Origin: a bacterium
Lineage (GTDB): Bacteria; Electryoneota; JAOADG01
Length of the DNA: 64,000 nucleotides
Reading direction: 5' to 3'
Assembly (NCBI GenBank): GCA_026417415.1
Contig: JAOADG010000037.1
Location: 62,001-126,000 of the forward strand
Positions 3 through 13,064 of this stretch are shown in pieces (positions within the stretch are counted from its first letter, which is position 1; every line of letters starts with the position of its first letter). A program made the position numbers and the translations under genes. The notes below the pieces were generated by a model, which saw only the letters and a list, made by a program, of their open reading frames with translations, was not told the DNA's origin and searched no databases.

Positions 3-656
3 AACAACGGAGGAATCATTCCGTCCATTCAATCCGGTACAATTCAAAATTGGGTGAAAGAGGTAACGCTAAAAAAGAAAAATCACTTTATTCAACGCAA
101 ACGAAAATTGATCGGAATCAATGAATCACCCAATCCAAATGAAATAGAACCACGGTCTAACCAATACCAAAACAATCCAACAGTTTCTTTTCTAACACCA
201 TTCATCGAATCAGAGCCAATTGAAACCATTCGTAGCAAGGTGTTGCAATCACGATCTCTTAGAAAAGATTGTAAAGTTACGATACTTACCTTAGGAAATA
301 TCACCTCGTTTATCCCAAGATATGATTTTACCAAAGCATTTTTTGAAATTGGTGGATTCGAAGTTGAAACAGTATCAATCAAGGATGTATCTGAGTGGTC
401 AAATACTGATCCATTCAACAATAATGTGGTAGCAATCTGTAGTACTGAGCAAAATTATTCCATGTATCTAAATACAATTGTACCATTGCTCAGAACGAAG
501 AATCCATCCACCCTGATATTCCTAATGGGCGAACCAAAATTGGTATCAGAAAAAGAGCATTACCAATCTTTAGGAATAAATTCCTTCATTCATAATCATT
601 CAAACATCATAGAAATTTTTCAATATATAATACAGGCGAAAGGAATCGAGTTGTGA
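3..656 (+). CDS. mutA: Methylmalonyl-CoA mutase small subunit, C-terminal part (5' end outside window)
   Basis: The frame is open from the first bases of the window, so the gene begins upstream; what is visible is about 217 residues. The first visible stretch ([14 protein letters not shown]) resembles the end of the TIM-barrel region of MutA-type subunits. The remainder, from about the SLRKDCKV segment, resembles the vestigial cobalamin-binding domain of small subunits, which keeps the fold but lacks the DxHxxG cobalamin signature; I see no such signature. The small subunit is the structural partner of the catalytic MutB subunit. It overlaps mutB by four bases (GTGA), indicating translational coupling. 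The assignment rests on mutB following directly plus sequence resemblance; the isolated C-terminal domain alone would be weak evidence. Confidence 0.8.
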
Positions 657-2833
657 AAACTGTACCCAATTTTGCAAATCTGCCTTTGAAAATAAAACCT
701 CCTCATATCAATTGGAATGAGTGGAAAAATCAATTTAAAAGTTGTACAGGACAAAATTTTGATTCAGCGTTATACAAAACTATGGAACAAATTCCAATCA
801 AAAAGTTGTACACTCATGAAGATATTGTAAACCTTCCACATTTACGTTTTCAATTCCCCGGCATTCCTCCTTACTTACGTGGTCCTTATGCTACTATGTA
901 CATTGCACAACCTTGGACCATTAGACAGTATTCTGGTTTTTCTACCGCAGAAGAATCGAATGCTTTTTATCGCAGAAATATAGCTGCTGGACAAAAAGGG
1001 TTGTCTGTTGCATTTGATTTAGCAACCCATCGTGGATATGATAGCGACCATCCGAGAGTCATTGGCGATGTGGGTAAAGCTGGAGTTGCAATTGATTCAA
1101 TATTAGATATGAAAATCCTTTTTGATGGTATTCCATTAAATCAAATGTCTGTTTCCATGACCATGAATGGTGCAGTTCTCCCAATTATGGCCTTCTACAT
1201 TGTAACGGCATTAGAGCAAGGTGCGACCTTAGATCAACTTTCTGGCACTATCCAAAATGATATTCTAAAAGAGTACATGGTTCGTAATACTTACATTTAC
1301 CCACCTCAAGGTTCTATGCGAATCGTCGCCGATATTATCGCTTATACAGCAAAGCATATGCCTAAATTCAATAGCATTTCTATTTCTGGTTACCATATGC
1401 AAGAAGCAGGTGCAACTGCTGATTTAGAAATGGCTTATACCTTAGCAGATGGGTTAGAATATGTGAGAACAGGGTTAAATGCTGGTTTAACCATTGATGA
1501 ATTTGCACCAAGGTTATCTTTCTTTTGGGGCATCGGGATGAATTACTTTATGGAAATTGCAAAGTTGCGTGCTGCAAGAGTACTATGGGCAAAACTGATG
1601 AAACAATTCCAACCCCAAAATGAAAAATCATTGATGTTGCGTGCTCATTGTCAAACATCAGGATGGTCTTTAACCGAGCAAGATCCAATGAACAATGTCA
1701 TTCGTACCTGTATTGAAGCAATGGCAGCAGCGTTAGGTCATACACAGAGTTTGCATACCAATGCATTAGATGAAGCAATTGCTTTACCTACCGATTACTC
1801 TGCAAGAATCGCAAGGAATACACAATTGTATTTACAAAATGAGACGGGAATATGTAATATCATTGATCCACTTGCAGGTTCATATTACCTCGAAACACTT
1901 ACTGCTGAGTTAATCCAATTAGCTAACCAACACATTTTAGAAATTGAAGAGCTAGGTGGTATGACCAAGGCAATTGAACAAGGACTACCCAAAATGCGAA
2001 TAGAAGCAGCAGCTGCCCGTAGACAAGCAAGAATCGATTCAGCTGAAGATACTATTGTCGGTGTCAATCGGTACAAATTAGGCAATACCATATCGGTAGA
2101 AATTTTGGAAGTTGACAACCAAGCTGTACGAAATCAACAAATTGAAAGGTTAAAGAAACTTAAACAAGAACGAAACAATGAAGAAGTACAATCTGCATTA
2201 AATGCCATCACTGAATCTGCAAATACTGGAAAAGGAAATTTATTAGAACTTGCTGTTGTCGCTGCACAGAAAAGAGCTACATTAGGAGAAATTAGTGAAG
2301 CATTAGAAAAGGTGTGGGGAAGACATCAAGCGGAAACCAAACGGATTAGTGGAGTTTACAGTAGCGAATTTATGATAAAAGAAAAAATTATTGAAGTAAG
2401 AAAACTAACTGATGAATTCGAAGCAAGAGTTGGCAGAAGACCTAGAATTTTGATTGCGAAAATGGGACAAGATGGACACGATCGAGGTGCAAAAGTAATT
2501 GCCACAGCATTTGCTGACCTTGGTTTTGATGTGGATATAGGACCATTATTTCAAACACCCGAAGAAACCGCAAAACAAGCGATAGAAAATGATGTACATA
2601 TTGTAGGGATTAGCTCATTAGCGGCAGGACATAAAACATTGGTCCCGATGTTGGTGAACGAACTAAAGAAATTAGGAAGAGAAGATATCATGGTAGTAGT
2701 CGGCGGTGTGATTCCTCAACAAGATTATGAGTATTTATATCAAAAAGGTGCTTCTGCAATTTTTGGTCCCGGCACGGTGATTACTGATGCTGCAATAGAG
2801 ATCTTGCAAAAACTTAAACATGCGAATGTATAA
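653..2833 (+). CDS. mutB: Methylmalonyl-CoA mutase large (catalytic) subunit
   Basis: This 726-residue protein interconverts (R)-methylmalonyl-CoA and succinyl-CoA using adenosylcobalamin. The N-terminal two thirds are the substrate-binding TIM barrel, with family stretches such as [11 protein letters not shown] and [19 protein letters not shown]. The C-terminal domain carries the cobalamin signature [10 protein letters not shown] around residues 605-614; His609 would be the lower axial cobalt ligand. The later SSLAAGHK and VVGGVIP segments complete the B12-binding fold. Length is normal for the family. Translation starts with GTG overlapping the mutA stop. With mutA and meaB it forms a compact propionate/methylmalonyl-CoA module on the plus strand; no epimerase or propionyl-CoA carboxylase is visible. 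Direction (propionate oxidation or production) cannot be decided from sequence. Confidence 0.97.
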
Positions 2834-2841
2834 AGCAAAGT

Positions 2842-3843
2842 ATGTGTGACTATACACCAACCGATGAACATGCAGTAAAGTTGTTTCAAGGGATTCAAAA
2901 GCGTGATAAAATTTCGCTTTCACGAGCCATTACCATTGTAGAATCAGCCGCAGAACAGCATCAAAAAATTGCCAATGAACTATTGAAACTCTGTTTACCT
3001 TATCAAGGTAAAGCATTTCGCATTAGTATCACCGGGATACCAGGTGCTGGAAAGAGTACATTCATAGAAGCATTAGGTAAACTCATGGTAAATGAAGGTT
3101 TTCATTTAGCAGTATTGGCGGTGGATCCAACTAGCACAATTAGTAAAGGAAGTATCTTGGGTGATAAAACAAGAATGGAAACCTTGTCTCGTGAAGACAA
3201 TGTATTCATTCGTCCATCACCTAATCGTGGAATGTTAGGCGGCATTACAAAAAGTACTTATGAAATTATGCTTCTCTTTGATGCTGCTGGATATGATTAC
3301 ATGATTGTCGAAACAGTAGGTGTTGGACAAAGTGAAATTTTTATTCGATTGATGGTGGATTGCTTCATACTTTTACTAATTGCGGGAGCTGGCGATGAAT
3401 TGCAAATTTTTAAGAAAGGAATTACAGAAATAGCAGATATCATTTTAATCAATAAAGCAGATGGTTCAAACCAACAAGTTGCAACCAAGTATGCTGAAGA
3501 GATGAAACGTGCCATTCATTTCCTTGCTTTAGAGAAGTCAACTTGGAAAACACCAGTATTTCCAATATCTGCTAAGTCAATGTGGAATATCAATAGAGTG
3601 TGGGATACAATTAAATCATTTCAGCAACAAATCAAAGCATCGGAAGATCTCAAGCAAAGATCAAACACATTAAAGGTAGATTGGTTTCGTTTTTTACTAA
3701 AAGAACGGGTCGTAGAAACGTTTTTTTCTAATCCACAAATAAAGACCGAAATCGAACGTTTAGAAAAGATGATCCTAAATGATTCATTGTCTATTTACGA
3801 AGCAATAAATCAAGCGTTAAAAAAATTGGAAGATAATTCGTAA
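2842..3843 (+). CDS. meaB: Methylmalonyl-CoA mutase chaperone GTPase (MeaB/ArgK family)
   Basis: A 333-residue G3E-family GTPase that protects and reloads the methylmalonyl-CoA mutase cofactor. The Walker A motif GIPGAGKS is at residues 65-72, followed by the family stretch VDPTSTISKGSILGDKTRME, the switch-like ETVGVGQSE segment and the guanine-specificity motif NKAD. The family segment AGAGDELQIFKKGI is also present. The gene starts eight bases after the mutB stop, so it belongs to the same transcription unit. Its end converges on gatD with a single base between the two stop codons, and I see no hairpin terminator between them. The older name ArgK (arginine transport kinase) is misleading in this context. 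Confidence 0.95.
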   Translation: MCDYTPTDEHAVKLFQGIQKRDKISLSRAITIVESAAEQHQKIANELLKLCLPYQGKAFRISITGIPGAGKSTFIEALGKLMVNEGFHLAVLAVDPTSTISKGSILGDKTRMETLSREDNVFIRPSPNRGMLGGITKSTYEIMLLFDAAGYDYMIVETVGVGQSEIFIRLMVDCFILLLIAGAGDELQIFKKGITEIADIILINKADGSNQQVATKYAEEMKRAIHFLALEKSTWKTPVFPISAKSMWNINRVWDTIKSFQQQIKASEDLKQRSNTLKVDWFRFLLKERVVETFFSNPQIKTEIERLEKMILNDSLSIYEAINQALKKLEDNS

Positions 3844-3844
3844 A

Positions 3845-5230
3845 CTATTTCCGAATTTTTGATATAAACTCTTCCACTTCTGGAATGCCACCTTGAAAGA
3901 TTAAATAACCATTGCTTAATTCTCGTTCGGTAATCTCTCCAGCGATGGGTGTGTACATTATTTTTTTAACTTCATCCAAATCACTGGTCTGTCCTAATGC
4001 CCATCCTAATTTAACATAAGCAACTTCAGGTAACATATTTGCCATCGGAACCACTCCTAATTCCATCATATCGCGACCCGTATCATAGACATACATTTGT
4101 ACGTAACCCCATAATGTTTGAACTGTCATATAGACCGCAATTCCTTTGTCTTTAGCACGTTTCAATGCAGGATAAAGTGGTTTATTGACATGTCCTAAGC
4201 CAGTCCCAGCAATGACAATACCTTTGTAACCGTTGTCAATTAAAGAATCAAGAATATCAGCACGCATATTAGGATAGTAATAAACAATGCTTACCATTTC
4301 TTCAAAAGCAGTATTGATAATCACATTTTTATCGTTTCTTCGTCGTTTGTAATCTGTTCGTAGAGGACGAATGGCAGTTCTACTTACCATTGCTAAAGGA
4401 ATATCACCAATGGTACGAAAGGTAGAACGATAACTGGAATGCATTTTTCGAACTCGTGTACCGCGATGAAGCAATCCATATTCATCTGAAGTAGGACCGA
4501 ACATACAAACCATAACTTCAGCAATATCCGATTCAGCAGCAGCTTTTACACTATGCATCAAATTCAGAGCCGCATCCGAGGAAGGACGATCGCTGGAACG
4601 TTGAGAACCCACCATTACAATTGGAACAGGTGAATTCTGAACCATAAAAGATAAAATCGCAGCTGTATGATGCATCGTATCGGTTCCGTGGCCAATCACG
4701 ATTCCTTGAACACCTTTTTCAATTTCTCTACCAATTGCTTCTGCTGTACCTTTCCACTGTTCGGGTCCCATATTCTCACTAAACACACCATACAATTTTT
4801 CAGTTTCTAAATTGCAAAGATCGGCAAGTTCAGGTACTGAACCATAGAGCTCACCGGGAGAAAATGCTGGAATCACCGCACCAGTACGGTAATCCAAACG
4901 ACTGGCAATGGTACCTCCTGTACCAAACAATTTTACTCGAGGTTTTTTAGGATCGTAAGGAAACTCTTTTTCCGGAATTTTGTAGTGGGCTTCTTTACGA
5001 CCTGTTACGGTAATACAAGTGATGTTTTTTGCTGCGATACCAATGTTGTAACCGGATCGTAATTTTAATACGATATGATATTCATCTGCAGTTTCTGATC
5101 GAGGTAAAATGATACCAGTAAACTCACCTTGATGAGTTTGAATTGTTACATCACTCCAAACCGGTGCACCAAATTGCTTTAGTGTGTCTAGGGCAATACC
5201 CCGATATCCTTTGTATTCGCTATTGTTCAT
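3845..5230 (-). CDS. gatD: Glu-tRNA(Gln) amidotransferase subunit D (asparaginase-like), archaeal type
   Basis: This 461-residue protein is the glutaminase subunit of the heterodimeric GatDE amidotransferase: it releases ammonia used by GatE to convert Glu-tRNA(Gln) to Gln-tRNA(Gln). An N-terminal extension of about 95 residues, which plain L-asparaginases lack, precedes the asparaginase fold. Active-site motifs are visible: GTGGTIAS at 103-110 (nucleophile Thr107), the GatD-typical DYRTGAV at 113-119, HGTDTM at 181-186 (Thr183-Asp184) and a Lys in RKMHSS. A simple type I/II asparaginase is the alternative, but the N-terminal domain, DYRTGAV and adjacency to gatE make GatD much more likely. 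It follows gatE by 15 bases. GatDE is known as an archaeal enzyme, so presence in a bacterial context is unusual. Confidence 0.92.
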   Translation of the reverse strand: MNNSEYKGYRGIALDTLKQFGAPVWSDVTIQTHQGEFTGIILPRSETADEYHIVLKLRSGYNIGIAAKNITCITVTGRKEAHYKIPEKEFPYDPKKPRVKLFGTGGTIASRLDYRTGAVIPAFSPGELYGSVPELADLCNLETEKLYGVFSENMGPEQWKGTAEAIGREIEKGVQGIVIGHGTDTMHHTAAILSFMVQNSPVPIVMVGSQRSSDRPSSDAALNLMHSVKAAAESDIAEVMVCMFGPTSDEYGLLHRGTRVRKMHSSYRSTFRTIGDIPLAMVSRTAIRPLRTDYKRRRNDKNVIINTAFEEMVSIVYYYPNMRADILDSLIDNGYKGIVIAGTGLGHVNKPLYPALKRAKDKGIAVYMTVQTLWGYVQMYVYDTGRDMMELGVVPMANMLPEVAYVKLGWALGQTSDLDEVKKIMYTPIAGEITERELSNGYLIFQGGIPEVEEFISKIRK

Positions 5231-5245
5231 AGTACATTTTCTGTT

Positions 5246-7228
5246 TCAAACCGATAGTGTTTTTAAATAAAAATGAACTTGTTCTGCTACAATTGCTCCG
5301 TCAATTTTGCCACGAAAACGGTTCATGACCGATCGCATCAATGTACGAAACATTTGTTCATAATGGTGAAATGGTAAGTGTTTACAATCCTGAAAACATT
5401 TTTCAATTTCGTTAGGAAGAAGTGATAAATAATCTTCCTCTTCAAAATCAACTTCTAAAGTTCCATTTTCACAAACACTTTCCATCATGATATAAATTCC
5501 CTCTTTTGAAATTCTTCCATCGCGATACAGCAATAATATGGCTTCAATAGCATCACGATGAAGATTCGAAAGAGATAGACACTTGCGTTTTAAGCGCTTA
5601 GGATATTGAATTAGGGACACAGCAACAGTAGTAGGATTCAATTTCCAATCCTTTACTGCTTTTTCAAAAATTGAATAGTAAGGAGAGATAGTCAGTGGTT
5701 TCAGTGTGTCGCTTGGAATATTGAGTGTTTTACACCATTCTTCACGTTTCCAATAGGGTTCTGGAACCAAACGTGCAATCCTTTCAATACGGTCTTTAGT
5801 AATTTTTTTGGGTGGCAAATCCGTATCAGGATACATTCGATCTGGACCCGGTAAGATCCGTTCAAATCCATTGGTACCGTCAGACAGTGCTTGACGTGTT
5901 TCGGAAGGTACACCCATCGTGGCTTCTAAAGCACGAATCACAATTTCTTGGACAGCCGTTTCCACATCTTTTGTATCACCCCAAACTAAAACCAACGTGT
6001 CATCATTACTAGAATTGGTTTGTTTACGAACTGATTGCCATTCTGCAGTAGAAAGTGTTTCACTGGGACTGTCGCTATGGATAAGATTCGGTAATGTGGT
6101 TAGGCAAGCAATCACACGTACACGATCAGAAATCTCTCTTGAAAAATAGGTATCTGTTTGTGTTGGCCAGCGTAATAGCCCTTTGAATTGATGCAACACT
6201 ACACATTGTACTGTCTTGTTTTCATGGATTGCATTTCGGATCGGAGTATAGCGAGTTTTTCTAAGTAATCGTGTTACATCATCAAAATGATAAGAAAAAG
6301 TTTGAGGTGTGATACCCCTACGATGCAATTCTCTTCGTAATCTCAATAAATTCCACTGACGCTGCGCTTCATTGTAAGTTAGCAAAGGAATCATCGGGAT
6401 TCGAGGAACACCTTTGATTTCAATTCGTGTACCACCCAAAATACTTACATTTACATCTTGACGTGTTGAACCAATCCCTGTACGGACTTTTCCTGTACTG
6501 CGAACTAAACGGCGAAAAATTTCATTCACTTCTGCCACTTCTTGAGGTGATCGCATTTCTGGAGCTGTAACCGTTTCTATTAAAGGCATTCCTAAACGAT
6601 CGGTTAGATAAACACGAGTGTGGCCATAGTCACTAACTTCGCGACAAGCATCTTCTTCTAATCCTAATTGGACAATGGGAATCAAACGATTTTTGTAAGG
6701 AATAGAACCGTTAACACCAACGATGGTGGTTCGTTGAAATCCAGTAGGAATGCTACCGTCAAGATATTGTTTACGTGAGATATGGAGTTCATCAACTAAT
6801 GAACAACCGTAAAGTAAACCGATTTCTAATGCGATGTCCAACGCTTCTTCGTTTAATTCAAAAGGTGGAGTATCATCCATTTCATAAGTACAAACAGTAT
6901 TGCGATTAATATGGTAAATAATTTCTTTACGTGTTTTGAATTCCATTAAAGCAGTGCCATCATATTCTCCTAACTCAGATAACGTTGGTCGCATATGACG
7001 TAAAATTTCTGCGTGATATTCATCGCTATATTCACCTGCTGGACAACGACAAAACAATTTTTTTGAAGTGAGTAACTGCTGATGAATTTCTAAACCGGAT
7101 CTAAAACCAATAAAGTCGTAATCGGCAGGTGTCATTTTATCAAAATTTTGGAACACATAGTCATCTAATAATGAATCGGATAGGGAAGTATCGGTATTAG
7201 GAACGAAAGTGCGAAGTGATAGTTTCAT
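5246..7228 (-). CDS. gatE: Glu-tRNA(Gln) amidotransferase subunit E, archaeal type
   Basis: This 660-residue protein is the kinase/transamidase subunit that phosphorylates Glu-tRNA(Gln) and amidates it with ammonia from GatD. The GatB/GatE signature GLEIHQQL is at residues 45-52, followed by the zinc-type pair in FCRCP (Cys60, Cys62). The stretch YLDGSIPTGFQRT and the segment PGPDRMYPDTDLPP are characteristic of the family. Between roughly residues 290 and 450 lies extra sequence matching the AspRS-like insertion that separates GatE from bacterial GatB. The C-terminal part resembles the helical/YqeY-like tail (GKIDGAIVAEQV). The length fits GatE rather than GatB (about 480). First gene of the gatE-gatD pair; a possible promoter sits 26-31 bases upstream. 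Confidence 0.92.
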   Translation of the reverse strand: MKLSLRTFVPNTDTSLSDSLLDDYVFQNFDKMTPADYDFIGFRSGLEIHQQLLTSKKLFCRCPAGEYSDEYHAEILRHMRPTLSELGEYDGTALMEFKTRKEIIYHINRNTVCTYEMDDTPPFELNEEALDIALEIGLLYGCSLVDELHISRKQYLDGSIPTGFQRTTIVGVNGSIPYKNRLIPIVQLGLEEDACREVSDYGHTRVYLTDRLGMPLIETVTAPEMRSPQEVAEVNEIFRRLVRSTGKVRTGIGSTRQDVNVSILGGTRIEIKGVPRIPMIPLLTYNEAQRQWNLLRLRRELHRRGITPQTFSYHFDDVTRLLRKTRYTPIRNAIHENKTVQCVVLHQFKGLLRWPTQTDTYFSREISDRVRVIACLTTLPNLIHSDSPSETLSTAEWQSVRKQTNSSNDDTLVLVWGDTKDVETAVQEIVIRALEATMGVPSETRQALSDGTNGFERILPGPDRMYPDTDLPPKKITKDRIERIARLVPEPYWKREEWCKTLNIPSDTLKPLTISPYYSIFEKAVKDWKLNPTTVAVSLIQYPKRLKRKCLSLSNLHRDAIEAILLLYRDGRISKEGIYIMMESVCENGTLEVDFEEEDYLSLLPNEIEKCFQDCKHLPFHHYEQMFRTLMRSVMNRFRGKIDGAIVAEQVHFYLKTLSV

Positions 7229-7310: not shown

Positions 7311-8048
7311 TTAATGCGAATGTTTATGTTCATGGGCTGAATGAACATGTTCATGTTCATGCTTCAACAATTCTGATTTATTTGAATGTTGTTGGAGCAG
7401 CCAACCCACAAATTGGTCAATTCCAATGGATTGAAAACAGGAAACCTCAAAGCAAACTAACTTAGGATTTATTTTACGGATGCTATCGTACAACTTCTGT
7501 TTTGAAAATTTCAAATGTTCAATAAGATCGATTTTCGTAATAACTGCACAGTCAGCCACATGAAATGCAAGAGGATATTTTAAAGGTTTATCTTCCCCTT
7601 CGGTAACTGAAAGAAACACTATACGCAGTGCTTCCCCAATATCAAATTCTGCAGGACAAACCAAATTTCCAACATTTTCAATAAAAAGTAGATCCACTTT
7701 ATCCAAGGGGAAAACTTCCAAAGCTTGCCGAACAGGCGCTGCTTCTAAATGACAAGCACCACCAAACGTTTCGGTGGTAATTTGTAAAACAGGAATCTCA
7801 AACTTAGATAACCGATCAGCATCTCTTGTAGTAGCAATATCTGCCGCAATTACACCACAACGTATTTTATGGCGTGATAAAATTGGAAGTACCGTTTCTA
7901 AAAAAGTGGTTTTACCTGACCCGGGGCTGCTGATAAGATTGATCGCAAGTATATTCTTGTGCTGAAACAGATGGCGGATTTCATTTGCTATTCGCGAATT
8001 TGCATCTAATACTTTTGTAACAATAGGAATTTTTTTTGTTTCATTCAT
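7311..8048 (-). CDS. hypB: Hydrogenase nickel incorporation GTPase HypB
   Basis: A SIMIBI-class GTPase that, with HypA, delivers nickel to the NiFe-hydrogenase large subunit. The Walker A motif SSPGSGKTT is at about residues 40-48; the ENVGNLVCPAEFD segment with its metal-site cysteine and the specificity motif TKID follow. I chose the ATG at 8048 (245 residues) over the longer frame beginning at 8087 because it overlaps the hypA stop (ATGAATGA) and is preceded by GAGG at good spacing. The last 16 residues contain eight histidines (HEHEHVHSAHEHKHSH). Histidine-rich nickel-storage segments in HypB are normally at the N-terminus, so the C-terminal location is unusual. Last gene of the hypFCDEAB series. 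Confidence 0.95.
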   Translation of the reverse strand: MNETKKIPIVTKVLDANSRIANEIRHLFQHKNILAINLISSPGSGKTTFLETVLPILSRHKIRCGVIAADIATTRDADRLSKFEIPVLQITTETFGGACHLEAAPVRQALEVFPLDKVDLLFIENVGNLVCPAEFDIGEALRIVFLSVTEGEDKPLKYPLAFHVADCAVITKIDLIEHLKFSKQKLYDSIRKINPKLVCFEVSCFQSIGIDQFVGWLLQQHSNKSELLKHEHEHVHSAHEHKHSH

Positions 8049-8391
8049 TTGGAACCTCGATACTATCAATAAAAAATTCTCGACCACGGTTTACCAGTAA
8101 ATCAGTAGAAAAACAATAAGGACAAATGAAATGAACTTCATCCATTATAAAATCTTGTTTACATCGTTTGCAGGTACACTCAACAGGGATTTCTTCAATA
8201 ATTAATAACGTCTTTTCAAAAGGGGTTCCTTTAGTAAACACTTCAAAAAGAAACTGCAAATTGCTTGGAACGAATGTGGTTAATTTACCTAATTTTAAAT
8301 GAATGGAAAAAATCGGATGTTTAAGTTCATTATTGGAAATCTTTTGTTCTAATATCTCCAAGATACTTTGAACTGCAGATGCTTCATGCAT
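8041..8391 (-). CDS. hypA: Hydrogenase nickel metallochaperone HypA
   Basis: A small (116-residue) nickel-binding protein that works with HypB. It begins MHEAS; the MHE start provides the conserved N-terminal nickel site (His2). A zinc-binding pair CxxC...CxxC is present (CKRC and CPYC), with an additional upstream Cys in the CTC stretch. The start codon shares one base with the hypE stop (TAATG) and the end overlaps hypB by eight bases, so the three genes are translationally coupled. Length is normal. Confidence 0.96.
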   Translation of the reverse strand: MHEASAVQSILEILEQKISNNELKHPIFSIHLKLGKLTTFVPSNLQFLFEVFTKGTPFEKTLLIIEEIPVECTCKRCKQDFIMDEVHFICPYCFSTDLLVNRGREFFIDSIEVPNE

Positions 8392-9395
8392 TAGCAGATC
8401 CTCGGAAGTTGAGTACCTTCTAAAAATATTAAAGGTCGTTTACCACCTGTGTTCGTGCGAAGCAACAATTTTGCATTTTCATGTGTTACTTTTCCAATTC
8501 GCTTGGCATCTCTACCTTTGGAATGAGTACGCATTACTTGTAGGGCTTTTTCTTCTAATTCTTCTGGTACAAATACTAGCACTCTTCCTTCACTTGCTAT
8601 ATAGAGTGGATCAAATCCAAGTAATTCACAAAGCCCTTTTACAGAAGAACGTATCGGAATCGCTTGTTCGTCAAGCTCAATGGTCACTCCAGATGAATTG
8701 GCAATTTCAAGCAAAGTTGTTGCAATTCCACCTCTGGTTGGATCACGCATACAATGGATTTCGGGAACTTCATTGATTAATTCTAAGCAAAGATCATTCA
8801 ATGCTTGACAATCGCTTACAAAATCGCCTTCAATACCATAGTTTTCACGTGCAACGATGATGGCTGCTCCATGTTCAGCAATAGTTCCATTGATTAAAAC
8901 CACATCACCAACTTTTGCATTTGAAGCAGAAAGATGAACAAGAGGGTTGCAAAAACCTATTCCAGTGGTGGTTATATAAATCTGATCGGCTTCACCTTTA
9001 CCAACTACTTTAGTATCTCCAGCAACAATTTCCACTTTGGCGAATCGTGCTGCATTGTTCATTTCTTCTACTATTTTATCTAAAGTAGAAATACTTAATC
9101 CTTCTTCAAGGATAAACCCAACCGATAAGTACTGAGGTTTTGCACCCATCACAGCCAAATCGTTGATCGTACCGCAAATGGACAATTTTCCTATATTTCC
9201 GCCCGGAAAAAATAGTGGTTTCACAACAAAGCAATCTGTTGAAAAGGCAATGCGTTCGGTTGATGATAGAATAGAAGCGTCTTCCAAAGTTTCTCTAAAA
9301 CCAAAATGTTTCAGAAAAATTTGTTGAATAAGCCGATGAGTAGCGGCACCACCTTCGCCGTGATCTAATCGAATAAATTGATCAGTTTCAATCAT
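8391..9395 (-). CDS. hypE: Hydrogenase maturation protein HypE (carbamoyl dehydratase)
   Basis: A 334-residue member of the PurM/AIR-synthase-like ATPase family. HypE receives a carbamoyl group from HypF on its C-terminal cysteine and dehydrates it with ATP to the cyanide that becomes the active-site ligand. The required C-terminus is intact: the protein ends PRIC with cysteine as the last residue. Family motifs near the N-terminus (LDHGEGGAATHRLI, STDCFVV) and MRDPTRGGIATTL in the middle are visible. It abuts hypD directly (stop and start codons adjacent) and shares a base with hypA. Confidence 0.97.
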   Translation of the reverse strand: MIETDQFIRLDHGEGGAATHRLIQQIFLKHFGFRETLEDASILSSTERIAFSTDCFVVKPLFFPGGNIGKLSICGTINDLAVMGAKPQYLSVGFILEEGLSISTLDKIVEEMNNAARFAKVEIVAGDTKVVGKGEADQIYITTTGIGFCNPLVHLSASNAKVGDVVLINGTIAEHGAAIIVARENYGIEGDFVSDCQALNDLCLELINEVPEIHCMRDPTRGGIATTLLEIANSSGVTIELDEQAIPIRSSVKGLCELLGFDPLYIASEGRVLVFVPEELEEKALQVMRTHSKGRDAKRIGKVTHENAKLLLRTNTGGKRPLIFLEGTQLPRIC

Positions 9396-10475
9396 TTAAC
9401 TGCGATCTACTGTTTCGTAATGATAATATGCTGCGCATGCGCCTTCACTACTTACCATACAAGGTCCAACAGGATGGGTAGGAGTACATAAGTTGCCAAA
9501 GATTGGGCATTCAAAAGGCAACAGAATTCCTTTCATTACATCACCACAACTGCAACCCTTCGGCATTTCAGCATTTCTTTCTAATGAAATCTGAAACCGA
9601 CGGATTGCATCGTAACCAATGTATTCCTCTTTGAACTGAACACCGGAACGTGGAATCAAACCAATTCCGCGCCATTCAGAATCTACTGGTTCAAATACCT
9701 CGTCCATCAGTTGCAATGCAGAGATGTTACCTGACCACGATACTGCACGAGTGTATTGAATTTCCACTTGAGAGCGATTGGAAGAAAGTTGTTTTAACAA
9801 AAGAAGAATGCCTTCTGCAATATCAGTCGGCAAAAAACCTGTGATTACACACGGAATTGAGTATTGTTTAACCAAGAATTCATAGGATTGAGCGCCAATA
9901 ATCGTACTCACATGGCCGGGACATATAAATCCATCTATCTGAACATTTGGATCTTCCATTAAAGCAGCCATAGCAGGGGGAACCAATTTCCCTGCCACTA
10001 ACATCGAAAAATTGAGTAGGTTTTCAAATTTGGCACGCTGAATAGTTGCTGCTAAAATGGGCAACGTGGTTTCAAATCCTACACCTATAAACACGATTTG
10101 TTGTTTAGGATGTGTCTTAGCATAAATGATCGATTCAAGTGGTGAATACACAATTTTTACTTTTGCACCGCGAGACATTTCTCTTTGAAGTGTGCTCTGA
10201 GTGCCCGGTACACGGAGCATATCCCCAAACGTAAATACTACGACATTGGGCTGTTGACTTAATGAAATGGCTGCGTCAACTACAGAAACAGGGGTCACAC
10301 AAACTGGGCAACCGGGCCCTGACAATAAACGTAAATTGGATGGCAATTGGCTTCGTAGTCCACTGCGACTAATGGATACAGTGTGTGTTCCACAAACTTC
10401 CATAATGTTTCTTTTCTGAGTGGATAACGAATGGATACTTTGTAAAATAGTATCAAATGGAGTTTGGAGGTTCAT
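9396..10475 (-). CDS. hypD: Hydrogenase maturation Fe-S scaffold HypD
   Basis: HypD is the iron-sulfur scaffold that, with HypC, holds the Fe(CN)2CO group during hydrogenase maturation. Visible motifs include MEVCGTHT near the N-terminus, GPGCPVC (the cysteine pair that binds iron), CPGHVSTIIG in the middle and the C-terminal cysteine cluster (GCSCGDV, CPIFG, CTPTHPVGPCMVS) that ligates the [4Fe-4S] cluster. I place the start at the ATG at 10475 (359 residues) rather than at a TTG 18 bases upstream; the two differ by six residues. The start overlaps the end of hypC by 23 bases. Confidence 0.95.
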   Translation of the reverse strand: MNLQTPFDTILQSIHSLSTQKRNIMEVCGTHTVSISRSGLRSQLPSNLRLLSGPGCPVCVTPVSVVDAAISLSQQPNVVVFTFGDMLRVPGTQSTLQREMSRGAKVKIVYSPLESIIYAKTHPKQQIVFIGVGFETTLPILAATIQRAKFENLLNFSMLVAGKLVPPAMAALMEDPNVQIDGFICPGHVSTIIGAQSYEFLVKQYSIPCVITGFLPTDIAEGILLLLKQLSSNRSQVEIQYTRAVSWSGNISALQLMDEVFEPVDSEWRGIGLIPRSGVQFKEEYIGYDAIRRFQISLERNAEMPKGCSCGDVMKGILLPFECPIFGNLCTPTHPVGPCMVSSEGACAAYYHYETVDRS

Positions 10476-10695
10476 TGGAAAAACAACGTTCAATATCTTG
10501 AAATAGAGACAAAATTTCTTCTGCTTCTTGGGTATCTAATTTTTGAATGGCAAATCCAGCGTGGGCTAAAATATAATCACCCACTTGAGTATCCGGAACT
10601 AAATCTAAAGCAATTTCTCTGGTTAAACCACCAAAATCTACAATTGCAATACCATTTTGAATACGTTGAACCAATCCAGGGATAGCAAGACACAT
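10453..10695 (-). CDS. hypC: Hydrogenase assembly chaperone HypC/HupF family
   Basis: An 80-residue OB-like chaperone that binds HypD and the hydrogenase large-subunit precursor. It begins MCLAIPG; Cys2, needed for iron binding, is present. The VGDYILAHAGFAIQKLD segment is typical of the family. It lies 14 bases after hypF and overlaps hypD, in keeping with HypC and HypD acting as a complex. Confidence 0.96.
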   Translation of the reverse strand: MCLAIPGLVQRIQNGIAIVDFGGLTREIALDLVPDTQVGDYILAHAGFAIQKLDTQEAEEILSLFQDIERCFSNEPPNSI

Positions 10696-10709
10696 AGTAT
10701 TTGATAACC

Positions 10710-13046
10710 TTATTGTCTGATGAATTCATTAGCTAAAACAACTTGCCCTAATGCTAAACCACCGTCGTTTACTGGAATTTCATTAGGAAAAAAATAGAGT
10801 AGATTACGTCGTTGTAACTCTTTTAAAAGGAGTTCAAGAATTAAACGATTTTGAAAAACTCCTCCTCCTAATGCTACGGGTACACGACCATATTGTTCAA
10901 TGGCTAAATCAATGATTTCTAATGTACAATTTGAAATGGCACGATGAAATTCAAATGCTATTTTTTCTATAGGAATTTGATTGTGATACGCTTCATAAAG
11001 TTGTAGTAAAAAAGTACGAATCTCGATTACCCAAGTTTCACCTCTTGATGTTACGTTCAGATGAAATAGGGGTTTATCTAAAATTTTTGATGGTTCGTAA
11101 TAACGCCATGCAACTTGTTCAAGTTCAATCGCAGCTTGTCCTTCGTATGTAGCAACGAAACAGATCCCTAAAAAGGAAGAGACAGCATCAAACAATCGTC
11201 CTACACTCGTTGTCAATGTATAATACTTGGGCCGTTGAATAAAATGTTGGATACGTTCAAATTCATAAGTCGTAAATTGTGTTGAGAATACAAACGAATC
11301 TTTGGTAAAATCAGGATTAATGGATAGATAGTAACCAGTAGCAATACGATAAGGATTTCTAATGCTTGCATCACCACCGAGGAGTGGCATCTCCTCAAAA
11401 TGACCAATGCGACGGATTGATCGAAAATCGCCAAAGAAAAATTCTCCACCCCAAATCATTCCATCTAATCCATATCCAGTTCCATCAAAAATTACTCCAA
11501 TCGCTTCACGATAGTACCCGTGGGAAACTAATACAGAAGCGAAATGAGCTTGGTGATGTTGGATACCAATATGGGGTACATCTAAAAAAATATTTTTTGA
11601 ATAGCGAGTCGTGAATAAATCGGGGTGCAAATCATATGCAATAATTTCAGGTTGAATCCGAAGCCAACGCGAAAGTTTTTGAAATGATTCATCTAAAAAT
11701 TCCAAAGTACTATCATTATCCACATCACCTATGTGTTGAGATAAATAAATGTTATTTTCTTTAGCAATGGCAAATGTATTTGAATACATTGCTCCGACTG
11801 CAAAAGTATTGAACAACTTTTTTGGATACGAAATGGGCAACGGAGTAAACCCACGCGAACGCCGTGTCAATACCAATTGATTTTGGAATAGGTAACCAAC
11901 TGAATCATCACAACGATTCCAAATATCACGATTATGCAACAAAAAGCCGTCTGCAATACTGGATAAATTGTTCACAGCACTCGAGTTGTCAATTTCAATG
12001 GGCTCTTCACTTTGATTTCCGCTGGTCATGATCAATGCTGGAAAGCCACCCAATTCAAACAACAACGAATGTAAAGGTGTGTAAGGTAACATGGCACCAA
12101 TAAAATGTAGATTGGGTGCTACAAGCTCAGACAATTCTTCAAACAAGATTTCCTCTCGTTTGAATCTTAGTTTTTTCTTGAGCAGCAAGATAGGTTTTTG
12201 TTGAGAAAGTAACCACTTTTCTTCTGTAGAATTCACTTCACAATAGTGTTTCAAAGTGGTTAAATCGCGAAACATCACTGCAAATGGTTTGTAGGGACGT
12301 TTCTTTCGTTTTCTTAATTGTTGTACCGATTGGCTATCTGTTGCCAAACAAGCAAGGTGAAAACCACCCAACCCTTTCAATGCTAAAATTTTTCCTTGCC
12401 ATAAAAGTTTCGTTGCTCGGCTAATCACTGTCTTCGCATAGGAACTGGTGAATTGATCGGATATTTCTAAATCAATCCATTCCAAATGCGGGCCACATTC
12501 TGGGCATGCGATTGGTTCTGCATGAAAACGTCTATTCAGCGGATCATGATATTCTTGTTTGCATCGTGAACACATTGGAAATCGGTTCATTGTTGTTGAA
12601 ATGCGGTCGTACGGAACTTCGTAAACAATGGTAAAGCGTGGTCCGCAATTGGTACAATTGATAAACGGATACAAATAACGGAAATTGGTGTTTTGGTACA
12701 ATTCTTTTTCACAATCACTACATAACGCAATGTCTGGACTTATAAATGTTGTTTGTGAACCACTGTTTTGACTAAATACTATCTGGAATTCGTGTTCGTT
12801 TTGAAGTTCTATTTTAGTCAATTGAACTTGATCTATTCTGGAAGCAGGAGGAGGATTCTGTTTCAGTTCTTTTATAAAGCACTCTACATCTTTAATTGTT
12901 CCTTCAATTTCTGCAACTACGCCAGAAGAATCATTACGTACAAATCCAACCAAGTGATGCTTTATTGCCAATTGATAAAAATATGGACGAAATCCTACTC
13001 CTTGAACGACCCCTTCAATCTGTACTGAATAACGAATTTTATTCAT
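10710..13046 (-). CDS. hypF: Carbamoyltransferase HypF
   Basis: This 778-residue protein makes the carbamoyl group for the hydrogenase cyanide ligands from carbamoyl phosphate and ATP. Domains in order: acylphosphatase-like (GVVQGVGFRPYFY near the N-terminus), two zinc-finger-like cysteine sets between about residues 105 and 185 (CSDC, CTNCG, CSRC, CPECG), a YrdC-like domain to about 390, and a Kae1/TobZ-like C-terminal domain with the metal-site motif HHQAH. I chose the ATG at 13046; the longest frame begins with a TTG 15 bases upstream. The gene follows the permease gene by 18 bases and precedes hypC by 14. Confidence 0.96.
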   Translation of the reverse strand: MNKIRYSVQIEGVVQGVGFRPYFYQLAIKHHLVGFVRNDSSGVVAEIEGTIKDVECFIKELKQNPPPASRIDQVQLTKIELQNEHEFQIVFSQNSGSQTTFISPDIALCSDCEKELYQNTNFRYLYPFINCTNCGPRFTIVYEVPYDRISTTMNRFPMCSRCKQEYHDPLNRRFHAEPIACPECGPHLEWIDLEISDQFTSSYAKTVISRATKLLWQGKILALKGLGGFHLACLATDSQSVQQLRKRKKRPYKPFAVMFRDLTTLKHYCEVNSTEEKWLLSQQKPILLLKKKLRFKREEILFEELSELVAPNLHFIGAMLPYTPLHSLLFELGGFPALIMTSGNQSEEPIEIDNSSAVNNLSSIADGFLLHNRDIWNRCDDSVGYLFQNQLVLTRRSRGFTPLPISYPKKLFNTFAVGAMYSNTFAIAKENNIYLSQHIGDVDNDSTLEFLDESFQKLSRWLRIQPEIIAYDLHPDLFTTRYSKNIFLDVPHIGIQHHQAHFASVLVSHGYYREAIGVIFDGTGYGLDGMIWGGEFFFGDFRSIRRIGHFEEMPLLGGDASIRNPYRIATGYYLSINPDFTKDSFVFSTQFTTYEFERIQHFIQRPKYYTLTTSVGRLFDAVSSFLGICFVATYEGQAAIELEQVAWRYYEPSKILDKPLFHLNVTSRGETWVIEIRTFLLQLYEAYHNQIPIEKIAFEFHRAISNCTLEIIDLAIEQYGRVPVALGGGVFQNRLILELLLKELQRRNLLYFFPNEIPVNDGGLALGQVVLANEFIRQ

Positions 13047-13064
13047 TTGGAATAGGTCCAAAGC

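Follow-up and report, generated by a model that had tools for sequence, protein, structure and literature searches.

The 64-kb stretch analyzed here (the window) lies on a 240-kb contig of a bacterial genome and encodes both subunits of GatDE, an amidotransferase of archaeal type. The two genes, gatE and gatD, are adjacent, full-length open reading frames (ORFs) on the minus strand (window positions 3845–7228), with gatE upstream and 15 nt between them. We regard the pair as almost certainly a genuine GatDE and as accessory, in that it replaces no other route to glutaminyl-tRNA (Gln-tRNA). Its active sites are intact, a second amidotransferase is encoded in the same genome, and gatD and gatE are strictly retained together under strong constraint. 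The bacterial enzyme is probably active. The most economical reading of its role is quality control of misacylated Glu-tRNA(Gln), a reading that we hold tentatively and at a little less than an even chance; activity, substrate and role are all what we infer from the gene products and their distribution.

Profile, structural and fold comparisons identify both subunits. The gatD product (461 amino acids (aa); 3845–5230, minus strand) is the glutaminase subunit and combines a GatD_N domain with type I asparaginase-like domains (Pfam GatD_N, Asparaginase and Asparaginase_C). It scores 520.8 against the curated equivalog model NF003217 (cut-off 310) and 515.7 against TIGR02153 (cut-off 324). The gatE product (660 aa; 5246–7228, minus strand), which is the kinase/transamidase and tRNA-binding subunit, scores 541 against NF003107 (cut-off 456) and 466 against TIGR00134 (cut-off 319.6), and GatB models applied to it remain far under their cut-off (132 vs 338). 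Because both proteins pass the NCBI cut-offs, automatic annotation very probably already calls such genes GatD and GatE. By sequence, the closest PDB chains are those of GatDE from Pyrococcus abyssi and Methanothermobacter thermautotrophicus, matched over nearly the whole length of both subunits (1zq1_A and 2d6f_A for GatD; 1zq1_C and 2d6f_C/D for GatE). In these comparisons GatD reaches 405 bits against archaeal GatD vs 141 against the best asparaginase, and GatE 350 bits against archaeal GatE vs 74 against GatB. Foldseek searches with the AlphaFold model of GatE likewise rank 1zq1_C and 2d6f_D/C first, then GatB, then aspartyl-tRNA synthetase (AspRS). The predicted GatD model, which is of moderate confidence (mean predicted local distance difference test score (pLDDT) 70), also points to archaeal GatD by fold.

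The catalytic residues, whose roles we take to be those established for GatD and for GatB/GatE, occupy the archaeal positions in the alignment. In GatD these are the first catalytic threonine, Thr107, in a GTGGT motif (4910–4912, minus strand, as for all features of GatD and GatE below), catalytic Thr183 and Asp184 in HGTDT (residues 181–185; 4676–4690), and the catalytic lysine, Lys262, in RKMH (4445–4447). All four are invariant among bacterial homologues (73 of 73). In GatE they are Glu47 and His49 at the metal-ligand positions of the kinase site, within GLEIH (residues 45–49; 7082–7096), Glu191-Glu192 in LEEDA (6653–6658), and Glu218 in PLIE (6575–6577), again without exception (78 of 78). 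The AspRS-like insertion of GatE (residues ∼301–425; 5954–6328) can be aligned over its full length with 1zq1 and 2d6f and is modeled mostly at pLDDT 77–95; AspRS chains are among the Foldseek matches, after GatE and GatB. A type I asparaginase beside a stray GatB is ruled out by the profile scores, the PDB matches and the GatE tree described below. The original prediction had recognized an archaeal-type GatDE from the adjacency, full length and motifs of the two genes, and the curated models, PDB matches and aligned residues bear it out. Two doubts that it had raised, placement of the proteins with asparaginase and GatB and loss of the AspRS-like insertion, were both resolved in favor of GatD and GatE, the insertion being present by alignment and by predicted fold.

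The source genome (2.21 Mb in 40 contigs; listed completeness 100%, contamination 0.01%) has another predicted route to Gln-tRNA(Gln). It encodes adjacent gatA and gatB, a separate gatC, two bacterial-type glutamyl-tRNA synthetases (GluRS), AspRS, and the lysyl- and asparaginyl-tRNA synthetases (LysRS and AsnRS); a search of the same genome for glutaminyl-tRNA synthetase (GlnRS, glnS) found none. The redundancy with GatCAB that had been suggested as one option at the outset is therefore real. The gatC gene lies away from the gatA-gatB pair (coordinates G000:C1:162300 and C38:147353-149559), and both it and the second GluRS gene are on the same contig as gatE-gatD. To classify the synthetases we used Arg358 of Thermus thermophilus GluRS as the signature of a discriminating enzyme, with the numbering checked against 1j09. 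At this position GluRS1 has Arg, the discriminating signature, and GluRS2 has Glu. The six other GlnRS-less Calditrichota with two GluRS that we read (G001, G002, G008, G026, G027 and G028) each have one enzyme with Arg and one without. Since GlnRS-less genomes show this combination, the predicted main route in the source genome would run from GluRS2 through Glu-tRNA(Gln) to GatCAB, with GatDE acting in parallel. Two tRNA-Gln genes, CTG and TTG (L119 and L124), have very different D-arms, and the CTG one resembles tRNA(Glu). A tRNA-Asn(GTT) is missing from the 44 tRNA matches of the genome, though AsnRS is present, probably owing to an assembly gap.

Across the phylum of the source genome, covered here by 39 genomes, GatDE accompanies either route. 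We take this phylum to be Calditrichota because the match coordinates of two of its members coincide with those of records labeled Calditrichaeota (L043) and Caldithrix (L072). Among the genomes at least 85% complete, 12 encode GatD, GatE and GlnRS without GatB (a thirteenth of this kind is 77% complete), eight encode GatD, GatE and GatB without GlnRS, two encode all four proteins, 11 lack both GatD and GatE, and one, which encodes GatB and lacks GlnRS, contains a GatE fragment without GatD. None of the 39 has GatDE but neither GlnRS nor GatB, and the presence of GatDE tracks neither GlnRS (p 0.28) nor GatB (p 0.29). The two subunits do track each other: with two genomes containing fragments left out, 23 of 37 have both, 12 have neither and one each has gatD or gatE alone (Fisher p ∼9e-8). 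This association holds also where the two genes sit on different contigs, and the same gatE-gatD operon recurs in other Calditrichota (L043 and L072). A single GluRS with Arg358 occurs in 10 of the 13 GatB-less genomes with GatDE and GlnRS; the other three (G013, G014 and G037) have two GluRS. All 13 encode AsnRS, as does the closed chromosome CP054675 described next, which rules out GatDE as a maker of Asn-tRNA in AsnRS-less genomes. Absence of a gene from a single draft genome is weak evidence, which is not so for CP054675.

Nor is the pair confined to this lineage. A single scan of GTDB species genomes returned 431 related stretches, and the best 80, read by their record names as deposited, come from Ignavibacteria, Kapabacteria, Aminicenantes and other Acidobacteriota, KSB1, Calditrichota and Marinimicrobia. 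Among the 50 named GatE-containing genomes within these 80, GlnRS scores above cut-off in 42, GatB is missing from 22, and 19 have GlnRS without GatB. The gatE-gatD pair itself was seen in ∼70 loci. Two of the genomes are closed. The Ignavibacteria chromosome CP054675 encodes gatE-gatD, AsnRS, AspRS, LysRS and a single Arg358-type GluRS adjoining GlnRS; in the 2.40 of 2.404 Mb read (7,500 N), GatA and GatC were unmatched and GatB models matched only GatE itself. CP053447 encodes GlnRS, GatB and GatE together. The TTG isoacceptor of tRNA(Gln) in CP054675 apparently has A73, the archaeal discriminator base. A lack of glutamine synthetase in CP054675 was considered and ruled out, as two glutamine synthetase-like genes were found.

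Constraint on the pair is strong and uneven. Among 70 bacterial carriers, median pairwise identity is 81.8% for GatD and 61.8% for GatE, and GatD is the more conserved subunit in all 2,415 pairs. Fourfold-degenerate sites among the carriers are near random (29%) and thus saturated, so the divergence must be old and the conservation of GatD must reflect constraint rather than recent transfer. Recent cross-phylum transfer is further excluded as the cause of the high GatD identity by GatE, which is only 62% identical although it is encoded in the same operon. Of the 92 proteins, drawn from 264 kb, that the source genome shares with CP054675, none is more conserved than GatD (86.7% identity; median 40%). 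The constraint on GatD extends to a bacteria-specific C-terminal extension (residues 436–461; 3848–3925; consensus REPSNGYLIxQGGIPEVEEFI), which lies outside the archaeal alignment and has a median identity of 84.6% among bacteria. Within GatE, median identity is 79–82% in the cradle domain, 58% in the AspRS-like insertion and 34% in the helical and tail domains (residues ∼481–655; 5264–5788), which in archaea bind the tRNA elbow. Tail distances exceed core distances by a factor of 4.8 in bacterial GatE, compared with 2.1 in GatB from the same phylum and 1.9 in archaeal GatE, the last from a single archaeal pair. The frozen core accounts for most of this contrast; the rate at which the tail evolves is close to the genome average. 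The tail is poorly conserved in sequence relative to the core, and its fold is confidently predicted.

By the mechanism that we propose, GatD would hydrolyze Gln (or Asn) and hand the ammonia to GatE, which with ATP would activate the carboxylate of tRNA-bound glutamate and then amidate it. In GlnRS-containing bacteria, GatDE would convert misacylated Glu-tRNA(Gln) to Gln-tRNA(Gln) and so act in quality control. Four points weigh against this role. Most GlnRS genomes examined have only GluRS of the discriminating type by signature, so that they have no obvious dedicated source of Glu-tRNA(Gln). The signature is itself no proof, since the Arg358 rule was upheld by mutation in T. thermophilus and failed in Helicobacter pylori GluRS1 (PMC3927822). 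Archaeal GatDE reads the A1-U72 pair of tRNA(Gln) (PMC9499178); both tRNA(Gln) genes of the source genome have U1-A72 and G73, which also disposes of a special archaeal-type tRNA(Gln) there. Finally, the archaeal GatE tail tells tRNA(Gln) apart by its D-loop (PMC4810234), and a less-conserved tail is odd if recognition of tRNA(Gln) is conserved.

The main rival explanation is that the bacterial enzyme acts on a new substrate, which might be a carboxylate not borne by tRNA or an aminoacyl-tRNA of another kind, misacylated or modified. Selection would have held the core, while recognition of the tRNA(Gln) elbow by the tail went unselected. We consider this a real possibility, though well short of an even chance. 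It agrees with the long separation of GatE from archaea (33–35% identity to the archaeal proteins vs 53% between two archaea), with the 38 GatD and 39 GatE positions at which two archaea agree and the bacteria have fixed another residue, with the conserved GatD extension, with the frozen core and GatD beside a drifting tail, and with a distribution that follows neither GlnRS nor GatB. On the other side, the fold of the tail is still predicted with high confidence and part of the RG[KR]xDG motif is kept, the archaeal yardstick is the single pair already mentioned, and no consistent neighbor gives a hint: beyond gatE-gatD themselves, no conserved gene pointing to a substrate was found in the ∼70 loci. 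The broader form of this idea, that a multi-phylum bacterial subfamily turned from Gln-tRNA(Gln) to a new substrate with near-invariant catalytic parts and a drifted tail, is a shade more doubtful still.

GatDE might instead be a plain, redundant second route to Gln-tRNA(Gln), of use, for example, when nitrogen is short or temperature is a stress. In GlnRS-less genomes GluRS2 would feed Glu-tRNA(Gln) to GatCAB and GatDE alike, which fits. Most GlnRS-containing carriers examined have no GluRS2, and a back-up function alone hardly accounts for GatD as the most conserved protein compared, so we think this unlikely. Replacement of GatCAB or GlnRS, the other option in the original prediction, is contradicted by the gatA, gatB, gatC and two GluRS genes of the source genome, which lacks GlnRS. 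The presence of an apparently intact GatDE speaks for replacement, but with a complete GatCAB here and no Calditrichota in which GatDE occurs with neither GlnRS nor GatB, we give this explanation very little credence. The three of 50 named genomes in which both are missing also have no GluRS match and are probably incomplete. A decaying relic or assembly contaminant, for which redundancy alone speaks, is scarcely credible given the strong purifying selection, the strict co-occurrence of gatD and gatE, the same operon in two other Calditrichota, and the length of the contig and low contamination of the genome.

Against this background, the bacterial enzyme can be set beside the systems it most resembles. 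It shares with archaeal GatDE (2d6f and 1zq1) the domain layout, catalytic residues, AspRS-like insertion, tail fold and two-subunit composition. It differs in sequence (47–50% identity for GatD, in addition to the lower GatE values above), in its GatD C-terminal extension, frozen core and drifting tail, and in coexisting with GlnRS, AsnRS or GatCAB and, in the source genome, with a U1-A72 tRNA(Gln). Bacterial GatCAB catalyzes the same type of reaction through GatB, a kinase/transamidase subunit homologous to GatE; its glutaminase is the amidase GatA rather than an asparaginase-like GatD, and GatB lacks the AspRS-like insertion. Type I L-asparaginase has the fold and catalytic residues of the catalytic part of GatD, but neither the GatD_N domain nor a partner. 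The GatCAB kept beside GlnRS and AsnRS in Deinococcus, Thermus and Bdellovibrio is likewise an amidotransferase retained despite both direct synthetases. We know of no GatDE that acts on Asp-tRNA(Asn), and, unlike the Deinococcus-type GatCAB, most GlnRS-containing GatDE carriers examined lack an obvious source of Glu-tRNA(Gln). In those three genera, a non-discriminating AspRS serves tRNA-dependent Asn synthesis (PMC4206432).

Open-access reviews still describe GatDE as archaea-only, with a specificity that co-evolved with archaeal tRNA(Gln), which would explain why archaea never acquired GlnRS; no known archaeon has one (PMC9499178). A 2014 survey knew of no bacterium that encodes the two routes to Gln-tRNA(Gln) together (PMC4206432). 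Both statements are touched by a GatDE that is conserved in bacteria and occurs alongside GlnRS. In the open-access literature we found no account of bacterial GatDE, subscription papers being outside the search. These genes also provide a large new data set for the old question of whether GatDE was present in the common ancestor or was transferred, and they pose a further one: what job a near-invariant amidotransferase does in cells whose decoding does not depend on it.

As to origin, the ancient transfer from archaea that was first proposed is not demonstrated. A GatE tree rooted on GatB separates a bacterial clade (95/91) from three euryarchaeal GatEs (100/99). These three sequences, without crenarchaeal, Asgard or DPANN members, make up the archaeal side, and the tree carries a long-branch warning. 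An old transfer from unsampled archaea and shared inheritance would fit this tree equally well. Further archaeal GatE was sought on viral contigs and none was found there. A haloarchaeal GatE does occur on a Natrinema plasmid record (L133, 6001–7835), where no gene is listed and the match is in two pieces, possibly from a frameshift.

Calditrichota also contain a second, diverged group of GatE with 44–51% identity to the GatE of the window. The pair in the window falls in the first group, together with Ignavibacteria and others, and groups only weakly with L043 and L072. Among ten diverged gatE loci, gatD is adjacent in G035, ∼2 kb away in G026 and elsewhere in the rest. In one family (G003, G005, G006, G008 and G009), the unlinked gatD is followed, 1.2–1.8 kb downstream, by a LysRS-like gene that is oriented in the same way, which suggests a translation operon. 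At three of the ten diverged loci (L309, L313 and L316) the gene next to gatE encodes a protein-L-isoaspartate methyltransferase whose start resembles a signal peptide, and at three (L309, L310 and L318) there is a downstream gene for a TrkA-type potassium channel. In the window itself, gatE is bordered by a complete hydrogenase maturation set, hypF-hypC-hypD-hypE-hypA-hypB (7311–13061, minus strand), in which hypC is an 80-aa ORF (10453–10695). On the other side, genes for methylmalonyl-CoA mutase and then its GTPase MeaB (653–3843, plus strand) are convergent with gatD.

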